Below are positions 150-33,323 of a stretch of DNA of 33,598 nt, in pieces. Positions within the stretch are counted from its first letter, which is position 1. Every line of letters starts with the position of its first letter. The notes beneath the pieces are model-generated. The model made no database searches. It had not been told where the DNA came from and saw only the letters and a list, made by a program, of their open reading frames with translations. Position numbers and translations under genes: made by a program. Origin of the DNA: a virus; the IMG/VR virus record IMGVR_UViG_3300045974_000168, positions 1 to 33,598 of that record; one strand, given 5' to 3'.

Positions 150-424
150 GCGAGTTTGTACAGTTCCTGTCGGATGTGAACCATGTCCAGACCCTGAGTC
201 TTGAGGTCAGTGATTCTCTGCATAGACTTCGTCCATTCGTATTTTTTGAGCAGGGTATAAAGTTCGTCAAACGTACGGCCGACAGATGCATATGCTAACT
301 GCTCGAATCTTGACCGCAGGATACATGTGAACGTGACGGGGATGCCCTTTGCTGCACACTTGACCATCATCGCAGAGAGTCGCAGTTGCAGTTCCGGATG
401 TGCGTCTTGAATTTTTACTTGCAT
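1..424 (-). CDS. Endolysin, M15-type peptidase (N-terminal part; continues at 33450)
   Basis: Joined across the circle (424 to 1, then 33450 to 33320) the gene encodes 184 aa. It would cut peptide bonds in peptidoglycan for host lysis. The N-terminal part shows an LRSRFEQ segment and GR (residues about 37-52), like the substrate-side Arg/Gln of VanY/L-Ala-D-Glu peptidases. A SRHLP..TGKSLACDF block (about 117-134) supplies the zinc-ligand His and Asp. The third ligand, in DLPHVEL, lies in the right-end part. The H-to-D spacing is a little longer than the usual SxHxxGxAxD. ATG at 424 follows GGAGG with good spacing. It overlaps the stop of the upstream 69-codon ORF by 10 bases, suggesting coupling. 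No signal peptide or membrane segment, so export needs a holin. Family call is from motifs only. Confidence 0.85.
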   Translation of the reverse strand, partial: MQVKIQDAHPELQLRLSAMMVKCAAKGIPVTFTCILRSRFEQLAYASVGRTFDELYTLLKKYEWTKSMQRITDLKTQGLDMVHIRQELYKLAGHSPSEIGDKKITWTMNSRHLPTATGKSLACDFAVGTAKKLEWSPKVDI

Positions 425-624
425 GTGAATCCTCCGAAGATATCTGAGAAGATTGCGTCAAAATCTACTGCAGGCTTTTGAAATAAAGAATCTCCAGAAT
501 CTGAAATCATAAAGACTCCGTTATTTAAAGACCCCGTATTATTAAACCTCGGACCCTGACCATTCCTTTGCTCCCAGCCGGTTTTGTTTTTCATATTCCG
601 GGATTTTGTTTTTGATTTTTGCAT
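415..624 (-). CDS. Small ORF of 69 aa formed within repeat A; coding status uncertain
   Basis: Polar, Asn/Gly/Ser-rich peptide without a recognised domain. An AAGGA site sits 9 bases before the ATG, and its stop overlaps the endolysin start, so it could be translated and coupled to lysis. Against this, most of it lies in intergenic repeat A. The matching segment of repeat B (14470-14600) keeps a similar reading (GQGxRFxxTGSL...DSLF) but has an in-frame TGA where this copy has TGG. Either repeat B is a decayed copy, or this ORF arose by chance from repeat DNA. No function is proposed. Confidence 0.4.
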   Translation of the reverse strand: MQKSKTKSRNMKNKTGWEQRNGQGPRFNNTGSLNNGVFMISDSGDSLFQKPAVDFDAIFSDIFGGFTCK

Positions 625-857
625 TTGTTGTGTCCTTAAAAATTCGTGCAGATATATATTCTTTATCTTCTTCTATAGGATACCCGCGGTATTACCCATC
701 CATACCCGCGGGTATTGGACACGAACTCTGTAACTACCTAATTTTATTATGCATGCAATTTTCAACATATTCATCAAACATTTGTTTGACATCAATTTGA
801 TGCAATTTTTGAATTGTCCTTTTTAACAACAAAAGACGCGGGTATTGGACATGTCAT
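468..857. repeat. Intergenic repeat A (homologous to 14468-14885)
   Basis: A long imperfect repeat shared with a second locus. Shared blocks, in plus-strand order, are a segment around GACCCCGTAT (about 516-600), an AT-rich AGATATATATTCTTTATC tract (655-670), a 14-bp palindrome ATACCCGCGGGTAT (702-715) followed by TGGACA and CTGTAACTA, and CATCAAACATTTGTTTGACA (around 773-791), itself an inverted repeat TCAAACA/TGTTTGA. A further partial unit GCGGGTATTGGACA at 838-851 falls inside the 3' end of the next gene. No tRNA, transposase or good promoter is visible in it. Confidence 0.85.
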
Positions 858-1358
858 CGTTTTTTTCTGCAGTTTCGAATCATCATCCGAATGCCTGGCG
901 ATGACCGAGATGCCATAAATCAGACCCGCCACCAGCAGACTTGTCATGATTCCAGTTGCGAACTTTGCCCAGAAATCTTTGGACTTTTCCAGTGTTGCGA
1001 CTTGGTCTTGCATGCCCTTGATGACTTTGCCTTCTGCCTCTTTGTGTGCATAGAAAGCGCCTTCCAATTCCTTGAAATCCACTTCCACCCTCTGCACTTG
1101 CACTGTGCAGTGTTTGCAGTCTTCCTGTACCCGCATCAATGCAATGACGTCGACGTCATGTTTCTGCAGAGAGATATCCACCTTCTTTTCCAGTTGCCGG
1201 ATGTGTTCAATATTTGGAAGAACTGAAACGAATCCGGTCAGAGTTCCTTCCATTTTTGACATCATCTTCTCAATGTTTGAGTACTGTTCTTTAAGAACTG
1301 CGATGTCTTTCTCAAGTCCACTCAACTTTATTGCTCCGCTATAGTCATCGGCTGGCAT
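792..1358 (-). CDS. Coiled-coil protein with C-terminal membrane segment
   Basis: 188 aa, no family recognised with certainty. Residues about 12-135 are heptad-rich and highly charged, predicted coiled coil. A single hydrophobic segment follows (FATGIMTSLLVAGLIYGISV, about 135-155), then a polar tail. This layout is common in phage proteins between tail and lysis genes, so a membrane-bound lysis accessory or tail-associated role is an inference. ATG at 1358 follows AGGGG with 8-base spacing; a GTG one codon upstream is possible. It has its own promoter of the shared type at 1403-1431. The last ~20 codons run into repeat A, so the C terminus may have been replaced when that element arrived. 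Confidence 0.8.
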   Translation of the reverse strand: MPADDYSGAIKLSGLEKDIAVLKEQYSNIEKMMSKMEGTLTGFVSVLPNIEHIRQLEKKVDISLQKHDVDVIALMRVQEDCKHCTVQVQRVEVDFKELEGAFYAHKEAEGKVIKGMQDQVATLEKSKDFWAKFATGIMTSLLVAGLIYGISVIARHSDDDSKLQKKTMTCPIPASFVVKKDNSKIASN

Positions 1359-1431: not shown

Positions 1432-4269
1432 GTCAACTTCTGTCAGTTCAAAGACCAAAGACCCCTTGTCCCAGTCAATGCCCTTGCTCAGAACGATGAA
1501 GCGCTTCTCTTCCGTGAACCCGTAACCGTCGACAGATGCAACATACATCTCACGCCAGTCACCGCTGATGCCAGGTGTTCGACCTGTGTTGCCGTTGATT
1601 CGTGATTCATAAGCACGACCATCATGCACGACCTGCGCAAATGCTCCATATGTGTATGTCGAGTTCCACACCTGCTGAGGAACAGGCCAACTCAACTCAT
1701 TGACGTTGACGATGTCCAGCGGCTCCACATTGTAGTGATACAGAGGCGCATCCTTCGTTGTGACAGTTGCTCTGGGTGTTGCATTGTTCTTTGCCATCCG
1801 TTCAATCAGACCTTGCTGACGAGGTCCGTTGTCGTTGACATATGCCCCTGCAATCAGACAATGATTCGCAGTCAGACCAGCAGATGCTCGATACACCCTG
1901 AACTTGACGACTCCTACATTGTTTGTGTTTCTGTTGTTGATATTGAAGTTGTACGCATGAGCAGTGTTGTCGGGCGGTAATGCATACAAGTTGACCCACG
2001 CGTTGATTTTAGTGTTCCATATCTGCAGGTATGTCTCAGCACCCGCGTCTGCATTGTATAAAACCTGAACAGATGCGCTGCTTCCGTATTCTACAGCACC
2101 AATCTCATATCTCAAATCAAGACCCGGAGAGTTTGCGACTGATACTTCTTTGACGTTCCACGTTGCAAGATGATTTGCGACAATATCACCAGACCCTGCA
2201 TCTAATGTCCCCGCGACAATCGTCGCTGCAGTGACGTTGCGATTGACACCAGTACCACCAGAGATTGGATTGTTGCTGATTCCATTCCCGCATTTTTCGT
2301 ACCATTTTTTGATGCCCATCTCCCCAGTCAGAGAGATTGAGTCAGCGTTCACGAGTTCGTAACAGTATGAGTAATCCTCTGCAGACTCGCTGCCCTCGCC
2401 CCTCGCTTTTGCATTGCCGCCCCAGAATACCAACTGAATCGGATTGATATCCTTGAACCCTGCATTGACAGCGTCGAATGTGCTGACTGTTGCGTCAAGA
2501 GTCGCTGTCGCGTTTGCGTTCTCATTCCAAATCTTCAAGTGCATCTTCCCGTCAGGGTATGGAATGCAATATGCGCCGATGTACACGCAGAGTTCATTCA
2601 TAAGTTTCGACCACGCGACGGGTTTGGTCAGAGTCCTGCTGACTCCGTATCCTGCTCCGTAGTTTCGAGTCGCTGCAACTTCGTTGAACGATGTCAGGTC
2701 ATATTCATGCGAGTTGTCGATGATATCAATCAACTGCTTTATTGCTTCCACAGGATTCGCATTGAGAATCACAGGGTCAACCACCTTTGATAACATCTCG
2801 TCAGCGGCTTCCTGAGGAACCTTGAGTGATGCATACTTCTTGAAGATGTCTCTGAGTTGAAGCTCGACATATCCGTTCATGTGGTCCCACTTGTAGTCAT
2901 ACAACACCCCACTGAACAAGGGAGCGAATGAACCAGACGGCAGACCTGCGAATCCGATGTATGCTTTGATTTGCTTGTTCTTCAGGTTACCTGCAGACAT
3001 CAGACCTGACACCAGAGGAGTAATCCAGATACGAGGAGTAATTTCAGAGATGGTCGCAGGTTCAAGCAACTTGACACGCTGATTCATGGTTCCAATGCTA
3101 TCACCAATCAACAACGGTTGAACACCATTGAAGGGGATATTCGCATGAGTTCCGATGTATGTTTTGGTGTCAGTTGCGATTGTGATGTTGTTGATGACGC
3201 ATGGTTCCGTATGAGATGCAATCATCGATGTCTTCGTCTTCCAGTATCGATGAAGCGCCAACACATCGAGGTCCTGCGCAAGTTCCCAGTCGCTGAACGT
3301 CACACCATCGTCTGAATGACATATCTGATGAGAGATGCTGCCATGCTGAGGGCAGTATGAGTCGATTTGCAGAATTGGTGCAGTGATTGGAATCTCCTGC
3401 AGGTCGAGGATGTCGGTCGTCGCAGTTGCAATCATATCAATTGGACACCACTCGTTGATGCAGTATTCGGTTGCATACATCTGAAGTTTGACGGGGATGA
3501 CATGAGGAACTGCAGTCGAACCAGTCAGAGACGACCACCATGCAGATATCTCAGGTTTATATGGATATATGCTATGTGATGCATAGAATGCAGGGTCGAA
3601 TATATTGCCTGTCAGTCCGCCTTTGTAATTGCCGGCCATCCAATAGCAGGCACCCTTCCCTGCAGTTGCATATGCCCGGGAAAATATCAGGGTCTCTCCG
3701 GCATTTACCGTTACAGAATTGAATGACCACTTCTGATTAATGTCGTATACAAGAGCGCAGTTTCCGCCAATATCCACGATATCAGTCAGAACTCCAGTCG
3801 CTGAATTGTCAGTCGTCTTGCAGAGAACATTGCCCGATGCATATGAATTCCGAAATACTTCCTGTGTGATATAAAGTTCAACAGTGTATAGATTATTTGT
3901 GTCATACCGATTCGCGAATGGAATCGAAGTCGGGACAATGTACTTGCCCCTCAACGACATTGATTTGACTGTGATTGAATGTGCAATCGGGAACTGATAA
4001 TCGAACGTATTGAACCCGTACGCATAACCAGCCATCGCTTTGATTGCCCCGCCTTCGTACGTATTAGGAGCAGTTGGAAACTCACTGAATTTGATATTAC
4101 GAGGGTTTGTGTCTGCGTTTACAATCCCCCACAATACACCACCAGTCCAGTCTTCAACTGTGTTGCAGGTTGCAATCAGACCACCGGTCGACTCAATCTC
4201 TATATATGCGACCAATTCCCTCTGCTCTTTCTTCGCTGCTTCAATCCATGCGTCGTTTGCCAATGCCAT
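1429..4269 (-). CDS. Baseplate hub / host-recognition tail protein with C-terminal chitin-binding-like module
   Basis: 946 aa, last large tail gene. In siphoviruses the gene after distal tail encodes the tail hub or receptor-binding tip. Mid-protein segments (RTLTKPVAWSKLMNELCVYIG, then PDGKMHLKIW) resemble the hub/late-control fold used to cap the tail tube, which is an inference. Around residues 866-904 is a compact aromatic motif: VWNSTYTYGAFAQVVHDG, then RAYES, NGNTGRTPG and a final W. This is typical of type 5/12 carbohydrate-binding modules and suggests binding of a host surface glycan. The start overlaps the preceding stop as TAATG, so translation is coupled. The stop lies inside a promoter for the next gene. 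Confidence 0.75.
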   Translation of the reverse strand: MALANDAWIEAAKKEQRELVAYIEIESTGGLIATCNTVEDWTGGVLWGIVNADTNPRNIKFSEFPTAPNTYEGGAIKAMAGYAYGFNTFDYQFPIAHSITVKSMSLRGKYIVPTSIPFANRYDTNNLYTVELYITQEVFRNSYASGNVLCKTTDNSATGVLTDIVDIGGNCALVYDINQKWSFNSVTVNAGETLIFSRAYATAGKGACYWMAGNYKGGLTGNIFDPAFYASHSIYPYKPEISAWWSSLTGSTAVPHVIPVKLQMYATEYCINEWCPIDMIATATTDILDLQEIPITAPILQIDSYCPQHGSISHQICHSDDGVTFSDWELAQDLDVLALHRYWKTKTSMIASHTEPCVINNITIATDTKTYIGTHANIPFNGVQPLLIGDSIGTMNQRVKLLEPATISEITPRIWITPLVSGLMSAGNLKNKQIKAYIGFAGLPSGSFAPLFSGVLYDYKWDHMNGYVELQLRDIFKKYASLKVPQEAADEMLSKVVDPVILNANPVEAIKQLIDIIDNSHEYDLTSFNEVAATRNYGAGYGVSRTLTKPVAWSKLMNELCVYIGAYCIPYPDGKMHLKIWNENANATATLDATVSTFDAVNAGFKDINPIQLVFWGGNAKARGEGSESAEDYSYCYELVNADSISLTGEMGIKKWYEKCGNGISNNPISGGTGVNRNVTAATIVAGTLDAGSGDIVANHLATWNVKEVSVANSPGLDLRYEIGAVEYGSSASVQVLYNADAGAETYLQIWNTKINAWVNLYALPPDNTAHAYNFNINNRNTNNVGVVKFRVYRASAGLTANHCLIAGAYVNDNGPRQQGLIERMAKNNATPRATVTTKDAPLYHYNVEPLDIVNVNELSWPVPQQVWNSTYTYGAFAQVVHDGRAYESRINGNTGRTPGISGDWREMYVASVDGYGFTEEKRFIVLSKGIDWDKGSLVFELTEVD

Positions 4270-6062
4270 TAGTCCGCCCTCGCTTCCAACACGATTTTTT
4301 TCATCTGTCGGTCGCCACTTGATTTGATTGGTGCGCTGAACTCACTGCTGTCCTTGCTGACTGCGAACAGAGCAACGTCCTGATTCTGGGCTGGGATAAA
4401 AAAGAATGGACGCATCTTCGAGAAGCATTCCCGCGACCAGTTGAGCAACACCTGATATTCCGCATCATTAACAGACCCGAAAATCAACTCAACAGAACGC
4501 TGTACGCCTTTATAAATTGCGCCGATGATTTTGCCCTGAGGTGACTTTTTAATCTTTCCGAGAGGCTTGGTGTTGTCCGGGTCAAATTGTTCGAAGTATG
4601 GCATACCGTTCCTCATTCCGAACACAATATGAGCAACGCAGAAATCGGACGATACAGCGCTGTTGAACGTGATACGCCAGTCAGGATATGTCTGGGTATC
4701 GAAAGCCTTCCACGCGCAGATTTTGTTGTTTGCTGGGATAATATATGATGACAACACTTCCACATTCGAAGTCACAAAGTTGTCGGTCGACGCATGGATT
4801 GAGATATTAACACCCGCGAATCCTTCACCCACCATCGCCATCGAGTTCGCAGTGACTGCAGAACCATGTCGGACGGTCAGAGACTTGCCTGCTTCTTGGT
4901 TCGCGCCTTTCCAGACCGTGTCTTCGGTTGCCCATCGACAATCGTTCGCTTTGAATCCGGGATATGTGTCGGATGCATATATTGACATTGTCGAGTCATA
5001 CGAACGATAAAGGAATGCAGGATTGTCCAGATAATCAATTGATACCAGACCACCACCTTGTGGGACTTCAACGATGACTGTGTTTGTCGGGATGTCGCAG
5101 ATGATATACATCACGTCGACTTCACATTGCTGACTTCCGTTTGAGTTGAACTGAATCTTGACTCTGAATGAGTTTATCTGGTTCGATATAGTGAGGTTAT
5201 AGACGGCAGCCTCAAGTTGAGTCCTCGTCAACCATGTCCCGCTGTACAGTCCATTATTGTATGCGAATTGATATTTGGGCGTCCCACCACCTTCGATGAA
5301 GTTCTCAACGAGCTTGATGCCGTTGATTTTGGTAATAGTATCTCCAATCCACGGCAACTCTGCGACTGGTCCATCTGTTGCGTATGCAGCACCACCGATG
5401 ACTGAGAAGTTGTCTGCAGAAAGACGAACCTGTGCGCTGTATCCAGTCGAAGATATAAATCCAAAATATCCCAACTGCAGATATGTTGTGTCTGTTGTTG
5501 TAAGTTTCAGAACGTTGTCGACATAGATATTAAGGTTCGATGCGGTTCGCTCTATCTTGATTCGATACGTCACACCATTTGTCCATGTGTGACTGACTGA
5601 ACCCAGAGTCGCCGCTCCAGTGCCTTTTTTTGCCAGAGATATCGTTCCTAATCCGGTAATGTTCAACTGATAGCAGTTTGTGTTGAATGTGGTTGTCGAT
5701 GCATTAGATGCAACGCAGAAGTTAAAATATATATATAGAAGATTCGAGACAAGAGGCGTCATGTCAAACTCCATCGTCCACGTAGTCGCAGACTGCAACG
5801 CAGAAGTTGCAAGTGCTGTGATGCCACCCGTCACGTTTGCAGTATCGTTGTATTGCAACTGACCACCACTGATTGTGAACACATTCGCACGACCGGGAGA
5901 GCCTAAAATAGTCCACTGATTCGTCAGAGCAGACGAGAAGTCCTCGACAAAGGATGCAATCTTCCTCATCTTTACTCCGGCATATGGTGCAGTCGAACCG
6001 ATGACCTGCAGTTTTGCTGCATTAATTGCCCATGTGTCAACGGTCGGCATTGCGATATTCAT
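4269..6062 (-). CDS. Distal tail-like protein with LamG/concanavalin-like insert
   Basis: 597 aa following the tape measure, the usual place of the distal tail protein linking tube to tip. Residues about 36-225 form a separate beta-rich domain (VEDFSSALTNQWTI, then YRIKIERTASNLNIYVDN, then LGYFGF). It resembles concanavalin/LamG-type glycan-binding jelly rolls, with aromatic residues on predicted edges. The C-terminal third (KIIGAIYKGVQRSVELIFGS, FFFIPAQNQDVALFAV) resembles phage proteins of the distal-tail/minor-tail type. AGGAG precedes the ATG. Overlap with the next gene (TAATG) supports a single tail operon. The exact structural role is inferred from position. Confidence 0.7.
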   Translation of the reverse strand: MNIAMPTVDTWAINAAKLQVIGSTAPYAGVKMRKIASFVEDFSSALTNQWTILGSPGRANVFTISGGQLQYNDTANVTGGITALATSALQSATTWTMEFDMTPLVSNLLYIYFNFCVASNASTTTFNTNCYQLNITGLGTISLAKKGTGAATLGSVSHTWTNGVTYRIKIERTASNLNIYVDNVLKLTTTDTTYLQLGYFGFISSTGYSAQVRLSADNFSVIGGAAYATDGPVAELPWIGDTITKINGIKLVENFIEGGGTPKYQFAYNNGLYSGTWLTRTQLEAAVYNLTISNQINSFRVKIQFNSNGSQQCEVDVMYIICDIPTNTVIVEVPQGGGLVSIDYLDNPAFLYRSYDSTMSIYASDTYPGFKANDCRWATEDTVWKGANQEAGKSLTVRHGSAVTANSMAMVGEGFAGVNISIHASTDNFVTSNVEVLSSYIIPANNKICAWKAFDTQTYPDWRITFNSAVSSDFCVAHIVFGMRNGMPYFEQFDPDNTKPLGKIKKSPQGKIIGAIYKGVQRSVELIFGSVNDAEYQVLLNWSRECFSKMRPFFFIPAQNQDVALFAVSKDSSEFSAPIKSSGDRQMKKIVLEARAD

Positions 6063-6074
6063 TTCATACTCCTA

Positions 6075-8687
6075 TCAGGCAGCGCTGTCTTGCAGCGTCC
6101 TGGCGTTGAGAATAGTGTCATTGATGTTGCGGGTCAGCCACTGCCTGTCTCCGATTGCTGTATCGACATTAACGACAATCATCGGCGGGACTGCCTGTTG
6201 TGCAGTTACATCCTGCGACCCTGCTGTTCCTGCCGAACCGGGAGAGGCTCCACCAGTTGGTGCAGAGACAGACCCTGCTCCTGCTCCACCACCTGTCTCG
6301 TCCATCTCCTGACTTGATATCGTTGCAATCTGCGCAACACCTGCAGCGACAGCGGCCGCGACATAAGCAAATGACCATGGAGGACCGGGAGGTGCTGCGA
6401 GTGCCTGCGTTGCTGCCATGGCGGTATTGACGATGGCAGAGGCGATGTTGTAGGCCTTCGTCATCATGAACAACTCTTTATTTTTCTTACCAGAGAAGGC
6501 AGTGATGGCCGTCTGCAGGCTCATCATGATGTTGCCGCCTGCCTGCATGAGTTGCGTCTTCATCGCGTTTTCTTTGGCCGTTGCGTTGACGCGGTCTTGT
6601 GCTGCTTTCGCATTGAGTGCAGTCAATCGAGTCTGCTTCTGAGACTCAATCATTTCCAGCGACTGACCATTTTGACGTGCCATATCCATTTTGATACGAT
6701 ACTCGCTCTCAAGTTTGGCTTTTTCCAACTCGAATGAATTATCTGCCGCTGCTTGATACTGACCTTGCTGTTCCAATTGCAGATTCTGTGCAGCGACCCA
6801 TGCTTCATCGGTGCCCATGGCGGTCTGTTGGTTGCCCTCGAAGACATTGCGCTTGCGGTCTGTTTCGCTGCCCGCGAATGAATTGTTCTCAATCTGAGTC
6901 TGGTCATTCAAACCCTGCAGACGATTATTCAGGTCAGCGTTGTCCATGTTCGGCCGTGCATCAATCTGTGCCTGTATTGCTGCCTTTTCGGATTCGAGGT
7001 CTGCGAGTCTGAGTTCATGACGTGCACGATAGAATGTCTCGTCATTCATCATTCTCTGAGTGTGCTCCATCTCAACAGCAGACATGACGACAGAGGTCCA
7101 CGACTTCTCACTATCAAGACCACGAGAGATGGCTTCCTCATGTTTCCGGATTGCAATCTGAGTCGCCTCAGAATCAAACTGAATACTCTCCACCTTCATC
7201 TGGTCGTTGATTTTTGCGATTGATGATTTGACTTCCTGCTCAACCTTCGCAAAATCCTGTTTGACCTTGTCGATGTCAGTCAGCGAGTAGTATTTTTTAT
7301 TTTTAGGGTCAGTCATCAGAGCGAGTTGCTCGTCCATTGACTTCTTTGCTGCAGTCAGAGTCTGATTCTGAACGTCGACCTCTTTCTGCAGGTCCTGCAG
7401 TCGTGCTGCATGCTTCTTGTCGAGATATGTTCTCTCACTGATTTGACGGGTGTTGAAGTCAGCCTCTGCAGATGCCAGGATTACAGAAGAGTGCGACTTT
7501 TGCAGGTCCTGTTCGTCCTTGAATCCTTCTTTCGCCAACTCATATATCTGTTTCTTGCGATTGACTGCGTCGGTATATGCATCCTTTGCAAGGCGGTCAC
7601 GCTCGGATTTGGCGGCGTTTGCGGCTTTGGCTGCTTCCTGCTTGCGCTTCTTTGCTGCTTCTTTTTTTGCCTCTGCTGCTTTTTGTTCTGCTGCATCTTT
7701 TGCGAGGTCCTGAGTCTTGCCCTTTTTTGGTAATTCCGGAGCTTTCTTCTCTCCGTTTATCTTTCGAGCATTCTCGTCGTAGATGTCACCGATTGCTTTC
7801 AACTCTTTTTGAAAATCGCCCCACCTTGAAGGAGAGAACAAATCAGTCACAGCAGTTCCCAACACTGTCACATAATATGCTCCAGCATTCGAATATTCCT
7901 GAATCCCCCTAATACCTGCCTTGAACACTTCGAGCATGTACACTGCAGCGGGAGCAACAACCTCAGACATGGTCGGTGCGAGTGACTCGCCCAGTGCAAC
8001 ACTTGCCTCGTGGATTGCCTTGGTGGTCTTTGCCATAGCACCGGCATATGTGCCCTGCATGATGATTGCGTTGCCGGCGACCGCTTCGTGCTCTTTCATG
8101 GTGCCGGTATAGATGGCTTGGACTTTCTCGGCCTGAGTCATCTTATCTGCAACTAGATTGTGTTTCAGTGCATACTCTTCCATAATCTTGCTGATATTTT
8201 TCGTCATACCAGCTTGGTCAGACATTGCGCTGATTTCGTTCTTGATACCCTCTGACATGCCCTTGACAGCTTCGTCCATAGTCAGGTGACCCTGCCGGTT
8301 GAATGCTGCAAAATCTTTTGAGAACTCAATCATCTTCGCGGCTTTGTCTCTATCAAAGCCATAATTGAGATAATTCTGCATCGCTTTTGAAGATGCATCA
8401 ATGCTGATGAGTCCGTCGTCTGATGCCTTCTTTACAGACTTGAATGTTTCGGCAGTGGTGTTGCCAGTGTAAGCAGCAGCAGACGCCAGACCGTATAATG
8501 CCCGCTCGTATTCCTCAGCCGCTTTCAGAGAAGACTTTACACCCATTACAAGGCCAGCGAGAGACGCGCCCTCAACCAGTTTGATGGCTTGTGCAACTTC
8601 TCTCATGAGTCCGGACAGCTTTGCAGTGTTTGCTTGCGCTTCGCTGTTATTTACCCGAACATTAATATTGACGTCACGTGTTGCCAT
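6075..8687 (-). CDS. Tail tape measure protein
   Basis: 870 aa from ATG 8687 (GGGTGG upstream; a GTG at 8696 is also possible). This is the longest helical tail protein; it sets tail length and is ejected with DNA. The N-terminal ~200 residues have the alternating helix pattern of tape measures. Residues about 205-285 include hydrophobic stretches (LGESLAPTMSEVVAPAAVYML). Residues 325-700 are long Lys/Glu/Ala/Gln-rich coiled coil. A C-terminal hydrophobic segment (PPGPPWSFAYVAAAVAAGVA) is followed by a Gly/Ser linker. It comes directly after the frameshifted chaperone gene, the canonical order. No peptidase or lysozyme domain was recognised. Confidence 0.92.
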   Translation of the reverse strand: MATRDVNINVRVNNSEAQANTAKLSGLMREVAQAIKLVEGASLAGLVMGVKSSLKAAEEYERALYGLASAAAYTGNTTAETFKSVKKASDDGLISIDASSKAMQNYLNYGFDRDKAAKMIEFSKDFAAFNRQGHLTMDEAVKGMSEGIKNEISAMSDQAGMTKNISKIMEEYALKHNLVADKMTQAEKVQAIYTGTMKEHEAVAGNAIIMQGTYAGAMAKTTKAIHEASVALGESLAPTMSEVVAPAAVYMLEVFKAGIRGIQEYSNAGAYYVTVLGTAVTDLFSPSRWGDFQKELKAIGDIYDENARKINGEKKAPELPKKGKTQDLAKDAAEQKAAEAKKEAAKKRKQEAAKAANAAKSERDRLAKDAYTDAVNRKKQIYELAKEGFKDEQDLQKSHSSVILASAEADFNTRQISERTYLDKKHAARLQDLQKEVDVQNQTLTAAKKSMDEQLALMTDPKNKKYYSLTDIDKVKQDFAKVEQEVKSSIAKINDQMKVESIQFDSEATQIAIRKHEEAISRGLDSEKSWTSVVMSAVEMEHTQRMMNDETFYRARHELRLADLESEKAAIQAQIDARPNMDNADLNNRLQGLNDQTQIENNSFAGSETDRKRNVFEGNQQTAMGTDEAWVAAQNLQLEQQGQYQAAADNSFELEKAKLESEYRIKMDMARQNGQSLEMIESQKQTRLTALNAKAAQDRVNATAKENAMKTQLMQAGGNIMMSLQTAITAFSGKKNKELFMMTKAYNIASAIVNTAMAATQALAAPPGPPWSFAYVAAAVAAGVAQIATISSQEMDETGGGAGAGSVSAPTGGASPGSAGTAGSQDVTAQQAVPPMIVVNVDTAIGDRQWLTRNINDTILNARTLQDSAA

Positions 8688-9665: not shown

Positions 9666-10751
9666 TTAATATGCGGCGGTTTTGTCTTTGGTCTGAACTG
9701 CAATAGGATATCCAATCGCAGGGTCAATCATGCTCTTGTACTTCATCTTGAGAGAGGGTGTCTTTCCTTCGACATCCCGCTCAGGTGCGTCTGAGGAAAA
9801 CAATGCGCGGGGGATATCAAACAGAGTCTGATATGTTTCGGTTGTGTTGATGGTCTCGAAGTTGTCGAGAATACACATCAAGGACGACATTGTGATTCCG
9901 GTCGCCAAACGCTTGAATTCTGCCGCAGAACTGAATCCGGAGGTCGGGTCGTTGTAGTCCATAGTGAAGTCAATCTCAACTTCGAACGCCTTATTTCTAA
10001 CGGTCTTCGAAGGTCCGACGATGCCATTCAAAATCGCTTTGTCGTCAAGACCATTGGTGATTTTGATGGTGAATTCGTCAGGATAGAATCTGTCCATGGT
10101 GCCAGGTGCGATGTCGGTGAAGTCGGGAGCAGTGCCAGTTCTTGCAGCACCAGCGCCGATGTACCACGCGACGCCCTGTCCGGTGTAGGGAACACGAACA
10201 GAGAACACAGGGTTCGGAGTCGCTGCTTGGTCAGGTGCACCAATCCAGTCGCCTGCGCCCTTGAGTTCGATGGTGATAGTGACGTCTTCGCCCTGCTTGC
10301 CTTTGATGGTGATTGAGAAGGGACGCTCACCTCCAAAGTCCTGAGACTTCGTGACACCCTCTTCGTCGGTGTTGGGAGAGAACAACATGGCTTGGTCAAG
10401 CAAGGGATTCCCCGCGCCGTATGGCATTCGGACAGGATACATCAGCCCTTTGTATCCATCTGTGTCGATGGTTGCGCGGACTCCGGCATGTCCCATGACG
10501 AACTTGAAGAAATCCACGAATTCCTCAGGAGAGAAAATCGCTTCAATCGAATGAGCGAATGACTGGTCTTTTCGGGTTGCAGTGGGATATCCCAGAGACG
10601 AGTTGACGCCCATGAACTGCTTCCTCACTTCATCCTTATAGTTCACTTTAGGGACAATTCCCTTTGTAACCCTGAGGAACTTATAAGCAGGTGCCCCCGG
10701 CTTTGTTCCCCTCGTTGTTTCAATTGCGTATGGCAGAAAATCAACACCCAT
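9666..10751 (-). CDS. Major tail tube protein
   Basis: 361 aa, AAGGAGG before the ATG. Starts with MGVDFLPYAIETTRGTKPGA, the form of siphovirus tube subunits (an N-terminal 'xxYAxExTxGT' segment). The rest is beta-rich with several DFTMDYNDP / EFTIKITNG strands. It forms the hollow tube through which DNA passes. Position between the tail-terminator-like gene and the chaperones, and a strong terminator directly behind, fit a highly expressed structural subunit. At 361 aa it is longer than minimal tube proteins (~150-250 aa), so an extra surface domain is likely. Family identity is inferred from position and composition. Confidence 0.8.
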   Translation of the reverse strand: MGVDFLPYAIETTRGTKPGAPAYKFLRVTKGIVPKVNYKDEVRKQFMGVNSSLGYPTATRKDQSFAHSIEAIFSPEEFVDFFKFVMGHAGVRATIDTDGYKGLMYPVRMPYGAGNPLLDQAMLFSPNTDEEGVTKSQDFGGERPFSITIKGKQGEDVTITIELKGAGDWIGAPDQAATPNPVFSVRVPYTGQGVAWYIGAGAARTGTAPDFTDIAPGTMDRFYPDEFTIKITNGLDDKAILNGIVGPSKTVRNKAFEVEIDFTMDYNDPTSGFSSAAEFKRLATGITMSSLMCILDNFETINTTETYQTLFDIPRALFSSDAPERDVEGKTPSLKMKYKSMIDPAIGYPIAVQTKDKTAAY

Positions 10752-13961: not shown

Positions 13962-14396
13962 TCAGTAGTTTGTGAAGCTGTCGACCAGATGCTGCTCAAG
14001 ACTCTCACAAATCAACGTACTGACTTCTGTGTCGCTCAATTCAATGAAGGGTCGCAGTCTTTCATTCCATCCGGCTTTCGCTGCCTCAGTTGTGGAACTA
14101 AATCCCACTTGGCAGTGATTGGTGACTCCGGTCAGAACTCCGAGGTTGCCGAGCATGTTGTGTCTCTGAGTGAGGTCAACGTATGCTGTCTGATAGCCCT
14201 TCTTTGCTCTCTGTTTAACCGAGGCGGGGGAGTAAGCCTTGAAGGCTGAGTCTGCCCCCTTCCCCGACTGTGTACGTCTCACAACGGTCGCTGATACGCT
14301 TTGTCCGATTGCAGTCATCTCCGAAGATGTGAAGTCGCGGGAGCATGCTCTCAGCAGTCCTTCAATATCTTCAATTGATGTCAGCGCTCTCGACAT
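13962..14396 (-). CDS. Virion morphogenesis protein (Mu gpG / HK97 gp10-like)
   Basis: 144 aa. The segments RRTQSGKGADSAFKAYSP, VDLTQRHNMLGNL, KAGWNERLRPFIELSDTE follow the pattern of the phage virion morphogenesis / tail completion group: 'R...G.....F..YS', 'vdLT..g.ML', and 'R.F..LSd'. Members help complete the head-tail junction. Here it lies before scaffold and capsid rather than after them, an order also seen in Mu-like modules. Translation start ATG 14396 has AAAAGGAAC upstream. It follows repeat B and has its own shared-motif promoter. Confidence 0.7.
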   Translation of the reverse strand: MSRALTSIEDIEGLLRACSRDFTSSEMTAIGQSVSATVVRRTQSGKGADSAFKAYSPASVKQRAKKGYQTAYVDLTQRHNMLGNLGVLTGVTNHCQVGFSSTTEAAKAGWNERLRPFIELSDTEVSTLICESLEQHLVDSFTNY

Positions 14397-14427: not shown

Positions 14428-14456
14428 ATTCTATTTACAGGCTGTGTGTGCGTCAA
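14428..14456 (-). promoter_or_regulatory. Shared-motif promoter before gpG-like gene
   Basis: TTGACG, 17-base spacer CACACACAGCCTGTAAA, TAGAAT followed by AAACAC. Drives the capsid module downstream of repeat B. Confidence 0.82.
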
Positions 14457-14467
14457 TAATAAAAAAT

Positions 14468-14885
14468 CAGGCTTTGAATAAAGAATCTTCGAGAATCTTT
14501 TCCTTTATTAAAGACCCCGTATCCTTAAACCTCAAACCCTGACCATTCGTTCTATCTCAGCCGGTTTTGTTTTTAATCCGGGATTTTGTTTTTCATGTTT
14601 TAAAAAAATGTGCAGATATATATATTCTTTATCTTACTCTATCCTATTGGACCGGGTATTGCCCATCCATACCCGCGGGTATTGGACATGAACCCTGTAA
14701 CTATTTGTTTTTGTTATGTATGCAAAAACCTGCATATTCATCAAACATTTGTTTGACATACTTTTTTTATGTCAAAAAATGACGGGTATTTCCTGTCCTT
14801 TTCCGTCCAATACCCGGTAGATTACCCGCGGGTATTGGACACAATCACCGTAACTATTTAATATCTTTATGTATTCAAAAACCTG
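14468..14885. repeat. Intergenic repeat B with tandem palindromic units
   Basis: Fills most of the 550-base gene-free gap between the MuF-like gene and the gpG-like gene. It repeats the blocks of repeat A and adds a second unit. Palindrome ATACCCGCGGGTAT lies at 14669-14682 and TACCCGCGGGTA at 14823-14834. Each is followed by TTGGACA, then GTAACTATTT and a TTATGTAT.CAAAAACCTG tract. Arms GTCCAATACCC (14805-14815) and GGGTATTGGAC (14830-14840) form a perfect 11-bp inverted repeat. TTTGACATA / TATGTCAAA is another 9-bp inverted repeat near 14754-14778. The remaining bases 14886-15006 show nothing recognisable. Confidence 0.88.
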
Positions 14886-15006
14886 AATGTAATTTTAGAA
14901 TATCATCATCACGCAACCAATCATTTGTGGGCTCCTTTATACCGATTGGCATAACAAAGCCCCAAACTAGCCTGTTCTATTTCATTTGTCCACTTTACTC
15001 ATGCTA

Positions 15007-15861
15007 TTAGTCGACCGGATTATCCTTGCCAGCTTCAACCCCTTCATCAGCACCCCACCCGACAGGTACTGGCAGAAGGCGATGCCTGCAGTTGTATCCG
15101 CCTCTCACCGTGAAGACGCTACCTGGTGCCTTGCCCTGCCACTTCAAACCCTGCCACGCCTCGATTTGACCCCTTGTGTAACGTTTCCCTACGCGGTCAA
15201 TGCAGAACTTGCGGCTTGTCTTCATCAATGTACCGGCATAATAGAACGCCTGCGCTGTGTCGCCACCCATTACCATCTGGTCAAGGGTCGCATTAAATCC
15301 CATGATTGCATCTTGTGCATATGTTGCCGCATACCTTGCGTGCTTCGGATTTGTTACCGCCGCACCAATGGACTCTGACATCTCTTTGAACGTCGACCCA
15401 CTCAGAACATGCTGATACAATTCCTTGTGGATTTCCTGCATCGTGAAGTCGCCGAGTGTGGTGAAGTATTCGACATCCATCTGTTGTAAGGCATGCAGGG
15501 TTCCGCTGTTGACTCGTGTCCATGGTTGATTAGGTGCAATCAGTGAGTATAGTTCTTTTGCCCTCACCACTACCTGGTCATAGTCACCAACGAACTCGGC
15601 AACAACAGAAGCATATCCAGCCTCTGCCGCTGCCGCTTTGAGGTTGTCAGCAGAGTTTAATGCCCACCCGATATTGTAATCAGATATGGCAAGGGCTCCG
15701 TCTGCGACTTCCAATTCAGCCACAAGACCCGCTATCTTTCGCTCTAAACGGGCGGCAACAATTGCAAGGTCGCTCTCGAACTTCGTCAACCTTGCAGTGA
15801 TGGCGACGTCGTTCGAGTTGACCAGTGCCTCAACCTTTGGCACTACCTTGACTTTCTTCAT
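15007..15861 (-). CDS. MuF-like phage head morphogenesis / minor head protein
   Basis: 284 aa directly after the portal gene. The C-terminal region reads FCIDRVGKRYTRGQIEAW, then GSVFTVRGGYNCRHRLLPV. This is the 'C....GK.y...........CRH.l.Pv' pattern of Mu gpF/SPP1 gp7-type proteins, which are packaged in a few copies and associate with portal. The N-terminal ~190 residues are helical and variable, as in the family. Start ATG overlaps the region of the portal stop, preceded by GGAG. No toxin domain is fused at the C terminus. Confidence 0.78.
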   Translation of the reverse strand: MKKVKVVPKVEALVNSNDVAITARLTKFESDLAIVAARLERKIAGLVAELEVADGALAISDYNIGWALNSADNLKAAAAEAGYASVVAEFVGDYDQVVVRAKELYSLIAPNQPWTRVNSGTLHALQQMDVEYFTTLGDFTMQEIHKELYQHVLSGSTFKEMSESIGAAVTNPKHARYAATYAQDAIMGFNATLDQMVMGGDTAQAFYYAGTLMKTSRKFCIDRVGKRYTRGQIEAWQGLKWQGKAPGSVFTVRGGYNCRHRLLPVPVGWGADEGVEAGKDNPVD

Positions 15862-20164: not shown

Positions 20165-20577
20165 ACATCCTCGCTTTCTGGTTCCTCTTCATACTCATAA
20201 GTAGCAATCAGCCGAAACTCAATCCCATGGTTGCCCGTCAACCTGCACACTACCCGCTTATGGAACGCCATCACCAGTGGAAACAATTTGCAGTTTAACG
20301 GTGTATCTCCCCATATGCTCCGGCTCTCGTCGTGTATGAACCCAACAACTCCGTAAAAGCTTATCTTCGCGTCTGGATACATGCCATCGTCGCTCTTCCG
20401 CATGAGTAAGATTGGCTTTATTGCCGCCCGTCGTTTCCAGTGCCGATACTTATCCTCGTCAACTTTTGCCCCCGGCGGCAACATCTTAAGCATCAGTTTC
20501 AGGCCCGGAATGTACAGCATCCAAAACCACCACTTGTACCGAATCTGCGCCACCCTATTAACTTTAATCCTTGTCAT
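20161..20577 (-). CDS. Unknown 138-aa protein
   Basis: Basic N-terminus with an aromatic hydrophobic stretch (YKWWFWMLYIPGLKLMLKML, about residues 14-33) that may associate with membrane. This is followed by a mixed domain and an acidic tail (YEYEEEPESEDV). ATG 20577 has AGGGGGC upstream. The longer reading to 20616 is rejected because that part is leader DNA. Family not recognised. Confidence 0.7.
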   Translation of the reverse strand: MTRIKVNRVAQIRYKWWFWMLYIPGLKLMLKMLPPGAKVDEDKYRHWKRRAAIKPILLMRKSDDGMYPDAKISFYGVVGFIHDESRSIWGDTPLNCKLFPLVMAFHKRVVCRLTGNHGIEFRLIATYEYEEEPESEDV

Positions 20578-20622
20578 AATGCCCCCTGTTTTTGTTTGTT
20601 TTAAAGTGAAAAACAAAGGTGC

Positions 20623-20651
20623 ATTATATCATAAAATCGTGTTATTCCGAA
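20623..20651 (-). promoter_or_regulatory. Possible promoter before 138-aa gene
   Basis: TTCGGA, 17-base spacer, perfect TATAAT. The -35 is weak. The leader shares TTGTTTTTCAC with the leader upstream of the 128-aa gene (about 21081-21091). Confidence 0.5.
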
Positions 20652-20660
20652 GGGTTAAGT

Positions 20661-21047
20661 TTATCGACATACATCAATTCTCGCAAATGGATATTGCTTG
20701 CAAGCCTTAAGATATTCATATACTGCTTTTACCAATATGTCATACGAGCCCCACCCATTATCTGGGTTGTATTTCTCGAATTTTTCCTTGTATTGTTTAA
20801 GAAAAGATAACCCGTCTGATAATGGCTGTATGAGTTGACCAGCTTGTCTGATTCCTATCTCTTCCGGTCTCCATAAACATTTATAAATGCCAGCTTCATC
20901 TGCCATCTCGCCCAGATTATGCGTGATATTTATTTCAAAGACCTGATAGGTGTCGTTAATTTCGCGATATTCATCGTCTTCTGGGTAATCTGTTGAATAG
21001 TCTGGGTCTTCTAAATCTTCAACTACAAGGCTAATGTCTAACGACAT
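20661..21047 (-). CDS. Conserved phage hypothetical protein (128 aa)
   Basis: Contains FEINITHNLGEMADEAGIYKC, LWRPEEIGIRQAGQLI and DNGWGSYDILVKAVYEYLKA. These are blocks I recognise from a widespread phage protein of unknown function ('NITHNL..MA..AGIY..lWRPEE'). Acidic N-terminus, no membrane segment. AAGGA precedes the ATG. It is encoded in the mid-region with other accessory genes. Confidence 0.78.
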   Translation of the reverse strand: MSLDISLVVEDLEDPDYSTDYPEDDEYREINDTYQVFEINITHNLGEMADEAGIYKCLWRPEEIGIRQAGQLIQPLSDGLSFLKQYKEKFEKYNPDNGWGSYDILVKAVYEYLKACKQYPFARIDVCR

Positions 21048-22972: not shown

Positions 22973-23001
22973 ATATTAGTTACAGATTGTGTGCGTGTCT
23001 A
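22973..23001 (-). promoter_or_regulatory. Shared-motif promoter before RusA-like gene
   Basis: TAGACA, spacer CGCACACAATCTGTAAC (17), TAATAT followed by AAACAT. One of six promoters with the same spacer element. Confidence 0.82.
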
Positions 23002-23596: not shown

Positions 23597-23874
23597 ATCA
23601 GACCCCTTTTCCTTTTCCACGACATCCGGTGTTTCCACGGCTCGTGATTTTTAGTGTGAATGCTTCTCAAAACCAACCCAAGATTCCAGACCGCGTTGTT
23701 GCGCTTGTTGCCGTCTTCATGATGCACTACATACCCCGCAGGGACTTTTCCATGCTCTTGTGTCCAGTTGTAGATGTGTACATATTGATATTTGCCGAGG
23801 TCGCCATAATACCGCTGAATGTAGCCGTCCGCAGTAGGGACTTTGTCTTCGTCTGAGACTCGTGTTCTTGCCAT
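23593..23874 (-). CDS. HNH endonuclease
   Basis: 93 aa. VVHHEDGNKRNNAVWNL (residues 49-65) is the HNH_3-type core: HH, D of DGN, NN, and a following NL. A later IHTKNH supplies the last His. It is either a free-standing homing-type nuclease or a component used in replication/packaging; here it lies between the helicase and RusA-like genes, not beside the terminase. AAAAAGGAGG before ATG. Confidence 0.88.
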   Translation of the reverse strand: MARTRVSDEDKVPTADGYIQRYYGDLGKYQYVHIYNWTQEHGKVPAGYVVHHEDGNKRNNAVWNLGLVLRSIHTKNHEPWKHRMSWKRKRGLI

Positions 23875-23888
23875 GTCATGCCTCCTTT

Positions 23889-25019: not shown

Positions 25020-25841
25020 TTAGAACGTGCTGTCATAGATTCCAGATACAGGTGCTGGTTTGGTAAATCCCTGCTGTTTGGTTGCTGTGCCGGCTGATGG
25101 CTTGCTGTTGTAGATTTCTTCTGAGAAGAACTTCGGCAGGTGTTTCGCGAATCCTTCCAGCCACTTCTTGTCATTTGCTTTAAAGTCATTAACCTTTGCA
25201 ACCAGACTGGAAGCAACTTCGTCAATATTGTCAGGTGTCAATCCCAAAACCTTAACCTTGGCTTTGAATGCTGAAAAGCCGGGAATCCATTCGTTCCTTG
25301 CCTCTTCCGGATATGCATCCCACACTTTATTAAAAACAAACTGCAGAGACTTGTTGTCGAGCTTGGCGGTCTTTTCGGCTTTTGGCTTTGATGTTTTGGA
25401 ATCTGCTTTTTCGTTTTCAAAAGCCGGTTTTGATTCTGATTCGTGTTGTTCCTTACCCTCTGCTTCCGCTTTGTTCTTCGCCCGATATGCTCTCTTGTAT
25501 CCTGCCTGCTTAGTGCGAAAATTCTGCAGACTGTCCAGACTCTGATGCTTCTCAAAGTTCTCAATTACCCAGAACCCGCCCTCCTGATAAACCATTCCGA
25601 GGTTCTCAAATTCAGTCAGTGCTCTTGTCACGAGTTCTGTTGACATATTCGTCTCAACTGCAAGCAGTGCCGGTGTCATTGGCTTGCCATTCCCCGACAT
25701 CTTCAAGACCGCTGATGCCCCCTCCATCGCGATACCGCAGAGCATGACGAAAAAAAGGACCATGCTGTCACCGTCCTGTAAATTCCTGAGAAGTTTGATT
25801 TTGATGTCGTTCCTCATTCCAGTGTCAATTTTTACCCACAT
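25020..25841 (-). CDS. Phage replisome organizer / DnaD-like replication initiator
   Basis: 273 aa from ATG 25841 (AAAGGGG upstream). The longer reading to 25901 runs through the promoter and is rejected. The N-terminus WVKIDTGMRNDIKIKLLRNL, then LAVETNMSTELVTRALTEF and ENLGMVYQEGGFWVIENF, ending NFEKHQS, is the winged-helix Rep-organizer domain that binds the phage origin. A long Lys/Glu linker and a second helical domain follow, like DnaD-type loaders. Shared-motif promoter sits upstream. Probably recruits the helicase encoded next. Confidence 0.85.
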   Translation of the reverse strand: MWVKIDTGMRNDIKIKLLRNLQDGDSMVLFFVMLCGIAMEGASAVLKMSGNGKPMTPALLAVETNMSTELVTRALTEFENLGMVYQEGGFWVIENFEKHQSLDSLQNFRTKQAGYKRAYRAKNKAEAEGKEQHESESKPAFENEKADSKTSKPKAEKTAKLDNKSLQFVFNKVWDAYPEEARNEWIPGFSAFKAKVKVLGLTPDNIDEVASSLVAKVNDFKANDKKWLEGFAKHLPKFFSEEIYNSKPSAGTATKQQGFTKPAPVSGIYDSTF

Positions 25842-25872
25842 ATTTTTCCCCTTTCTGTTTGTAAGTCTGACT

Positions 25873-25901
25873 ATGTTAGCCGCAGACTGTGTGCGTGTCA
25901 T
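25873..25901 (-). promoter_or_regulatory. Shared-motif promoter before replisome organizer
   Basis: ATGACA, spacer CGCACACAGTCTGCGGC (17), TAACAT. Begins one base after the stop of the preceding 101-aa gene. Transcript start would lie about 30 bases before ATG 25841. Confidence 0.8.
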
Positions 25902-28589: not shown

Positions 28590-29102
28590 ATGACAAGAAT
28601 CGATGCACAGAGAGAAATTGTGAAAGGTATCAAAGACCGAATCACTGAAAAAGGTTTTTCAGATGTTGCGCAGTTCTGCCGGATGTCGGGCCTTAAGAAT
28701 CACATATCGTTCGAGACTGCTCGTAGATGCTTGAATGATGTCGACCGGCCAGTTGCGCCCCTGACCCTCGCAGTTGTCATGAGACACCTTGACTATCCAG
28801 TCTCAGAGATACGGTCAGCAATGATTGCTGTCGGAGATACTGTGTTCGCGTATATGATGGAAGATAGTGCAGAACCAATGCCCATGCAAGACGCTGGACT
28901 GCTTGCTGCTGTGCAATGCATAGGGCAGATACACAACACTATATATAATGACCTGGCAGTGGTTCTCGAAGTGATGGCTGGGATGGTTGGGGTTGATGTG
29001 TCGGCTCATATATCAAAGATGAAGAAAGTCGGCAGGGCTCGGATATTGAAGAGTCAAACGGTGGCTGAGGAAAAAGTTCGGCAATTACAGATGGAAACAT
29101 AA
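28590..29102 (+). CDS. Putative lysogeny regulator (repressor-like)
   Basis: 170 aa, one of only two large plus-strand genes. AGGAGG is 4 bases before the ATG. The N-terminal ~75 residues (DVAQFCRMSGLKN, SFETARRCLNDVDRPVAP, LTLAVVMRHLDY) read like a helix-turn-helix domain of an atypical kind. There is no LexA/CI-type S24 peptidase: the C-terminal half is a helical region (QIHNTIYNDLAVVLEVMAGM) followed by a charged tail, so induction would not be by RecA-mediated self-cleavage. Position opposite the early operon and next to int makes it the repressor candidate. No close family identified. Confidence 0.65.
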   Translation: MTRIDAQREIVKGIKDRITEKGFSDVAQFCRMSGLKNHISFETARRCLNDVDRPVAPLTLAVVMRHLDYPVSEIRSAMIAVGDTVFAYMMEDSAEPMPMQDAGLLAAVQCIGQIHNTIYNDLAVVLEVMAGMVGVDVSAHISKMKKVGRARILKSQTVAEEKVRQLQMET

Positions 29103-32756: not shown

Positions 32757-33170
32757 TTATGGTGCTGTGAGAATAGTTTCTTGTCTGCGTTTGGCCGCTG
32801 CACCGCCAAAGTCAAACAGCGCATGCGCAACCCACCAGCGCCTGATTGCGCTCATTCCGTCCTCCTTGCATATAGTGTCAAGAATCTCATCTGCAAGGGG
32901 TCTCATATGCTCAGGAAGTTGACCCTGACGCATGAGTTGATACAGCGCATCATGAACGAGACTGCCCCTCATGAAATTCTTTGAGTCGATTGTTGGACCC
33001 GAAGGACCGTCCCACGCATACCCCTCTTTAATGATGAGGGTTCCGTCTTTTTTCAGAGTGATGAACCCGTGGTCAAACAAGTCCTCATCCGGATGAATGA
33101 TGATTTTTGTGGTGTACTCTTCATGCAGTTGATACTTGTATCCATCGTGATATTTGATGGTCTCTTTCAC
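32757..33170 (-). CDS. DUF1353 family protein
   Basis: 137 aa beginning with GTG 33170; AGGAGG six bases upstream overlaps the end of the 30-aa gene. The core GYAWDGPSGPTID, NFMRGSLVHDALYQLMR and a C-terminal FGG are the conserved blocks of DUF1353, widespread in phage tail/lysis regions. Biochemical role is unknown; His/Asp residues in LVHDALY suggest a possible hydrolase. Confidence 0.9.
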   Translation of the reverse strand: MKETIKYHDGYKYQLHEEYTTKIIIHPDEDLFDHGFITLKKDGTLIIKEGYAWDGPSGPTIDSKNFMRGSLVHDALYQLMRQGQLPEHMRPLADEILDTICKEDGMSAIRRWWVAHALFDFGGAAAKRRQETILTAP

Positions 33171-33294: not shown

Positions 33295-33323
33295 ATAGTA
33301 TGCACAGGTTGTGTGCGTGTCAA
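33295..33323 (-). promoter_or_regulatory. Shared-motif promoter before lysis genes
   Basis: Perfect TTGACA, spacer CGCACACAACCTGTGCA (17), TACTAT followed by AAACAC. Strongest of the six; the -35 contains the endolysin stop TGA (33320-33322). Confidence 0.85.

Follow-up and report, generated by a model that had tools for sequence, protein, structure and literature searches.

Paired origins and dispersed sites in phages

In few phages is it known where DNA replication starts, and the prediction of an origin usually depends on repeats inside one gene. Lambda ori, a single site inside the initiator gene O, has several close iterons. Mycobacteriophage stoperators are the dispersed operator sites of temperate phages, and N15 has inverted-repeat partition sites at distant places in its genome. 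In SPP1 there are two origins, oriL and oriR, which are ~13 kb apart, each with direct repeats and an AT-rich unwinding element and both bound by the initiator gp38, and oriR is situated among morons, between the portal gp6/gp7 module and the scaffold gp11 (PMC6316719).

How does the locus considered here compare? The window, by which is meant the whole 33,598-nucleotide stretch analysed, IMG/VR record IMGVR_UViG_3300045974_000168 (33.6 kb), has two distant sites with common repeats, A and B, and as in SPP1 oriL and oriR the repeats are beside an AT-rich tract, the comparison being by published description (PMC6316719, PMC3485210). B, like oriR, occupies a slot between a MuF-like gene and the scaffold, where a close relative has an R-M moron. 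However, oriL is inside the initiator gene 38 whereas the second site of the window is in the lysis cassette, the window iterons are palindromic, and the origin role of A and B is predicted from sequence. With stoperators the locus shares short intergenic repeated sites whose specificity differs between related phages, but the window has only two clustered arrays, an AT-rich tract and long conserved flanks. The likeness to N15 is in having inverted-repeat sites far apart; the differences are that no partition ATPase was found among the window proteins scanned, that an integrase is present and that there are two compact arrays. Lambda ori is picked up by the same repeat scan as A and B, though it is one site and within its initiator gene. 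We suggest that the two elements of this previously unseen phage are docking sites for a phage protein, most likely replication origins.

Two homologous repeats in one phage

The ends of the record are identical over ~148 nt, and the window is thus a circular assembly of a temperate phage, probably complete. A tyrosine integrase is encoded. Nearly all genes around A and B are on the minus strand. A (about 454-893, minus strand) and B (14449-14889, minus strand) are homologous ~440-bp direct repeats, mostly non-coding and with near-identical palindromic sites, 14.0 kb apart. They can be aligned over ~440 nt on the same strand, and self-BLAST of the window gives the pair 78% identity over 280 nt (E=3e-57), which bears out the common blocks in the same order and strand of the initial annotation. 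The iterons are TGTCCAATACCCGCGGGTAT, palindromes without loops. Within 2 mismatches ATACCCGCGGGTAT has 3 copies in the window, at 702, 14669 and 14822, compared with 0.05 expected in shuffles, and the three complete units (TTGGACA, 8 nt, GTAACTA) that had been counted earlier are indeed at 703, 14670 and 14823.

Within A, all on the minus strand, are an iteron block (TGTCCAATACCCGCGGGTATGGATGGGTAATACCGCGGG) at 679-721, an AT-rich tract adjoining it at 614-678, whose 60-bp window at 623 is the eighth least stable, and a 55-bp ‘CCCG core’ at 559-613 that is conserved in all 4 of the elements compared (A, B and two of the relative). An isolated site, TGTCCAATACCCGCG at 838-852 (minus strand), the partial fourth unit of the earlier count, is identical to the B sites and perfect over 15 nt, while its flanks have diverged. 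B, again on the minus strand, has two iteron blocks. Block 1 (14783-14841) has a perfect inverted repeat (14805-14816/14829-14840), which is 12 bp long rather than the 11 first given, and a further AATACCCG half site; block 2 is at 14646-14688, followed by an AT-rich tract (14594-14645) and the CCCG core (14542-14593). Inspection of the sequence revealed a dyad, TCAAACATTTGTTTGA, in A at 774-789 and in B at 14741-14756, between the two iteron blocks there; it has the form TCAAACAATCGTTTGA in the relative’s B copy, and inside it is an IHF-like ATCAANNNNTTR. Of the 8 least stable 60-bp windows in the genome 4 are inside A or B, those of B, which start at 14850, 14582 and 14455, being ranks 1, 3 and 6. 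When the genome was scanned for clusters of direct and inverted 10-mers, B had the highest repeat density and A came next among separate regions.

A relative with the same sites and other iterons

A terminase search yielded one close relative, IMGVR_UViG_3300045974_000130 (G001; 35.8 kb, with terminal repeats), whose TerL is 88% identical. Its A copy (L065:8735-9040) is in the interval between the holin-like and endolysin genes and its B copy (L062:12256-12750) in that between the MuF-like gene and scaffold, so that in both phages the element is at the same two syntenic places only, and each genome has only two iteron clusters. The relative’s iterons are TGTCCAnTGGACA palindromes with 11-13 bp spacing, the successive sites being 13, 11, 12 and 12 bp apart, and are unrelated in sequence to those of the window. 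B ranks first in repeat density in both genomes; G001’s A copy, with a single iteron block, ranks 15 of 354. Low-stability DNA adjoins the repeats in A and B of the window and in B of G001, while the A copy of G001 is outside the least stable DNA. Among the phages searched no other carries the exact unit, a result that the initial annotation had set against its own reading, but the element itself recurs in G001.

The likeness within and between the phages was compared segment by segment, by z values from mononucleotide shuffles of four sequences with segment limits set by eye. For the iteron blocks z is 10.3 for the window pair and 15.0 for the G001 pair but 1.2-2.8 between phages, and for the AT tract 5.9 and 10.4 compared with 1.4-3.8. 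The CCCG core behaves otherwise: z is 11.0 for the window pair and 5.6 for the G001 pair and reaches 9.9 between phages, the core of G001’s A copy being closer to the window cores (9.8-9.9) than to that of its own B copy. Had the element been converted as a whole, its core would have become alike within each phage as well, whereas core likeness is about equal within and between phages; the match of the iterons is not explained in this way. In our reading, the sites of one phage-specific factor were either kept matched by selection or exchanged in a targeted manner, and A and B would then be a pair of sites at which a trans-acting protein specific to the phage binds. Of the three options raised in the initial annotation, dispersed sites for a phage protein fits best, iterons being matched within a phage and swapped between phages, although the N15 parallel drawn for it does not hold.

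What else changed between the two phages? Integrase, TerL, HNH and the product of ORF 32757 are 77-97% identical, and the ParB_N-domain protein is 65% identical. The initiators share just 28% identity and the helicase gene of the window matches nothing in G001, from which it follows that the iterons changed along with the replication module. However, the repressor (39%) and TerS (37%) changed too and so co-change does not fix the partner protein; portal and capsid genes also differ. Three patches, 20183-20661, 23600-23875 and 32757-33170, are 81-97% identical to G001 at the DNA or protein level while the rest of the genome has diverged, which suggests recent module exchange.

Replication as the preferred reading

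The reading that we favour, while giving it rather less than an even chance, is that one DNA-binding protein specific to the phage, most likely its own initiator, recognises both A and B, which act as paired origins or as an origin and a distal control site. The proposed partner is the product of ORF 25020-25901 (minus strand), a replication initiator or replisome organiser (Phage_rep_org_N, Pfam E=8e-14; PHROG replisome organizer). It would bind the palindromic iterons, the AT-rich tract beside them would melt, and helicase would be loaded; the second site may be a late origin, or a fork barrier when replication turns to making concatemers. Protein binding, the initiator as binder and replication start at A and B are each inferred from the arrangement of the DNA, and for the link between initiator and iterons the two phages compared amount to one data point.

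Initiators of this family often have the origin inside their own gene. In the window ORF 25020-25901 ranks only 19 of 331 in repeat density, and in G001 its counterpart ranks 91 of 354, by a scan which misses TP901-1. On known phages that 10-mer scan places the lambda O gene second and the phi11 initiator gene eighth, but the TP901-1 rep gene has rank 32 of 373. Given that own-gene origins are common and that TP901-1 is missed, the absence of conspicuous iterons from ORF 25020-25901 and from its G001 counterpart is weak evidence. GC skew has no switch at A or B.

More tentatively, A and B may form a two-site control element whose specificity is swapped as a unit: arrays of iterons and AT tract, one in the lysis cassette and one 14 kb away in the head-gene moron slot, mutually matched and changed between close phages with the replication genes, would constitute a paired origin or a replication and late-switch system with its second site outside the initiator gene. 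With the same two sites and the iterons exchanged as a matched set, the window phage and G001 provide a natural experiment in how initiators and origins are matched and how replication modules swap; should the sites prove to be regulatory, the head and lysis genes would have a dispersed operator system of a new kind.

Gene surroundings and promoters

A is flanked by the holin-like ORF 792-1361, the 3′ end of which is overlapped by the outer end of A, and by the endolysin gene, which has its start codon at 422-424 and crosses the circular junction. The 3′ half of A is overlapped by a small ORF of 69 amino acids (415-624, minus strand), which ends in DFDAIFSDIFG, a C-terminus that G001 has conserved; of its 6 differences from G001, counted by eye, 5 are at third codon positions. 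‘Non-coding’, as the repeats were first described, is then mostly right, the exceptions being these two overlaps with A. The holin-like/endolysin interval of G001 also has its small ORF (L065:8720-8908, minus strand), the common C-terminus being DFxAIFSDIFG, and PHROG comparison gave no match for either. Two plus-strand ORFs, 606-800 and 14567-14782, with PSIPAGIGHE..CNYL in common, were considered and rejected as chance: changes in the B units are mostly nonsynonymous and the frame is absent from the relative. A tRNA search found none.

B is flanked by the gene labelled MuF-like (15007-15861) on sub-threshold Pfam matches, and by ORF 13962-14396 and the scaffold. In G001 an R-M cassette (L062:10466-12259) is upstream of the element, in the head-gene moron slot, and encodes a D12 methyltransferase together with an endonuclease of the NotI-like kind (Pfam E=2e-46); B and this cassette together give the arrangement of a site with morons between MuF-like and scaffold genes. 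The leader of the NotI-like gene has a hairpin which spans the start codon. In the window 41 nt (14922-14962, minus strand) are identical to that leader and start codon, and open a 9-codon ORF, after which B follows. From this identity directly upstream of B, the window phage probably lost the R-M cassette or kept its leader alone; the opposite order of events is conceivable.

Directly downstream of B is a consensus promoter, TTGACG-17-TAGAAT (14428-14456, minus strand), and B is therefore at a transcription-unit boundary; the earlier supposition that late operons should be continuous there was only partly right. Inspection of the G001 sequence indicates a promoter-like motif following its element also. 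The spacer motif of the promoter after B recurs at other minus-strand promoters: GAC(G/A)CRCACACA..CTG is in the -35/-10 spacers before several minus-strand units, at 1413-1429, 14438-14454, 22983-22999, 25883-25899 and 33305-33321. Allowing at most 3 mismatches it has 22 matches, compared with 7.8 expected, and may be an operator common to the phage’s promoters.

Other explanations for A and B

Could the arrays instead be operators for a phage transcription regulator, a repressor or late switch protein, at transcription-unit boundaries, in the manner of stoperators or ribbon-helix-helix tandem operators? This is unlikely, though several observations agree with it: the palindromes are loopless, with the spacing given above in G001, there is the promoter after B with its counterpart in the relative, and a putative repressor as diverged as that of the two phages could have its operators switch too. 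Moreover, TGGACA-17-TAATTT/TAATAT in A and in block 1 of B are promoter-like sites on the plus strand, the one in B being found in the promoter scan. However, the -35/-10 of the promoter after B is free of iterons, none is close to the putative repressor gene (ORF 28590-29102) or to the other minus-strand promoters, the clusters are only two, and operators alone do not account for the co-switching of the AT-rich tract.

Quite unlikely is that the repeat is neutral or selfish, an old copy of the lysis-cassette intergenic region in the moron slot which recombination keeps similar and which has no dedicated function. Direct repeats can be homogenised, and the point at which both B copies terminate, TTCAAAGCC, is as one old duplication would leave it; the A copies run on into the small ORF. 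The 3′ rest of the element is also more alike in the window pair (z 11.6) than between phages (3.3-3.9), by the same eye-set segments. But if whole elements were homogenised the core should be so too, and that of the G001 A copy is nearer to the window’s than to its partner’s; besides, iterons match only within a phage, and the site at 838-852 has stayed perfect amid diverged flanks.

Less probable again is a structured RNA in the late minus-strand transcript, whether a put-type antitermination leader or a hairpin for mRNA processing or stability, a possibility which the initial annotation had also raised. The elements are inside transcribed regions, and relative to shuffles folding has z -3.9 for B, -2.1 for A and -4.3 and -5.1 for the blocks of G001’s B, but the iteron blocks of the A copies reach only -0.8 and -1.2 and DNA folding gives similar z values. 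Nothing attains the Rfam gathering thresholds, low-scoring matches being far below. By eye, the second hairpin arm of A has lost a base without compensating change, and no compensatory changes were seen among the few sequences; loopless palindromes, in any case, suit duplex DNA.

In G001 the tandem ~11-13 bp units form two blocks with a spacer between them, much as in parC layouts, and TerS differs between the phages. Partition (centromere) sites of the parC or N15 kind, or a pac site that has been duplicated and is recognised by TerS, might therefore be envisaged, but either is highly improbable, with no ParA or ParM-type protein detected by Pfam among the proteins scanned, a tyrosine integrase present, a ParB_N-domain protein that is conserved when the sites are not, and no iterons near terS.

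Distribution

An exact match to the 19-base core was found neither in IMG/VR contigs nor among 84,980 species genomes, and blastn with B retrieved nothing from the phage collection and just 4 weak short matches from plasmids. As searches of public phage, plasmid and bacterial genome collections gave no copy of the core, a common host repeat, one of the initial suggestions, is not what it is. Nor did the searched collections yield the copies, in other genomes or at unrelated positions, that are expected of a MITE or transposon remnant. G001 excepted, the element is absent from relatives of the capsid gene (58 loci, best 51%) and of ORF 32757 (80 loci); a portal gene scan found no relative, G001 was the only match among viral contigs for the NotI-like protein and its leader, and G002, from a sister metagenome, has little in common with the window and does not have the element. 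The terminase profile has a single match in genomes, at 29%, in a deltaproteobacterial MAG. The element of A and B is real, lineage-restricted and better than chance.

A survey of 88 other viral loci found repeats of other kinds, >=60 nt long and >=2 kb apart, in 4 of them, so that dispersed repeats as such are not rare. Unrelated viral contigs have dispersed palindromic arrays of GAATTACGAATTACG units (L076:6195-6290, 9776-9870 and 3916-4011; L085:3310-3415 and 6155-6260). In L010, one of the capsid-gene relatives, an AT-rich ~60-nt AACAAAATGYAATTTTTATGYTATAAT is at four places, near 5700, 9230, 14860 and 17600, and these repeats are probably a promoter family.
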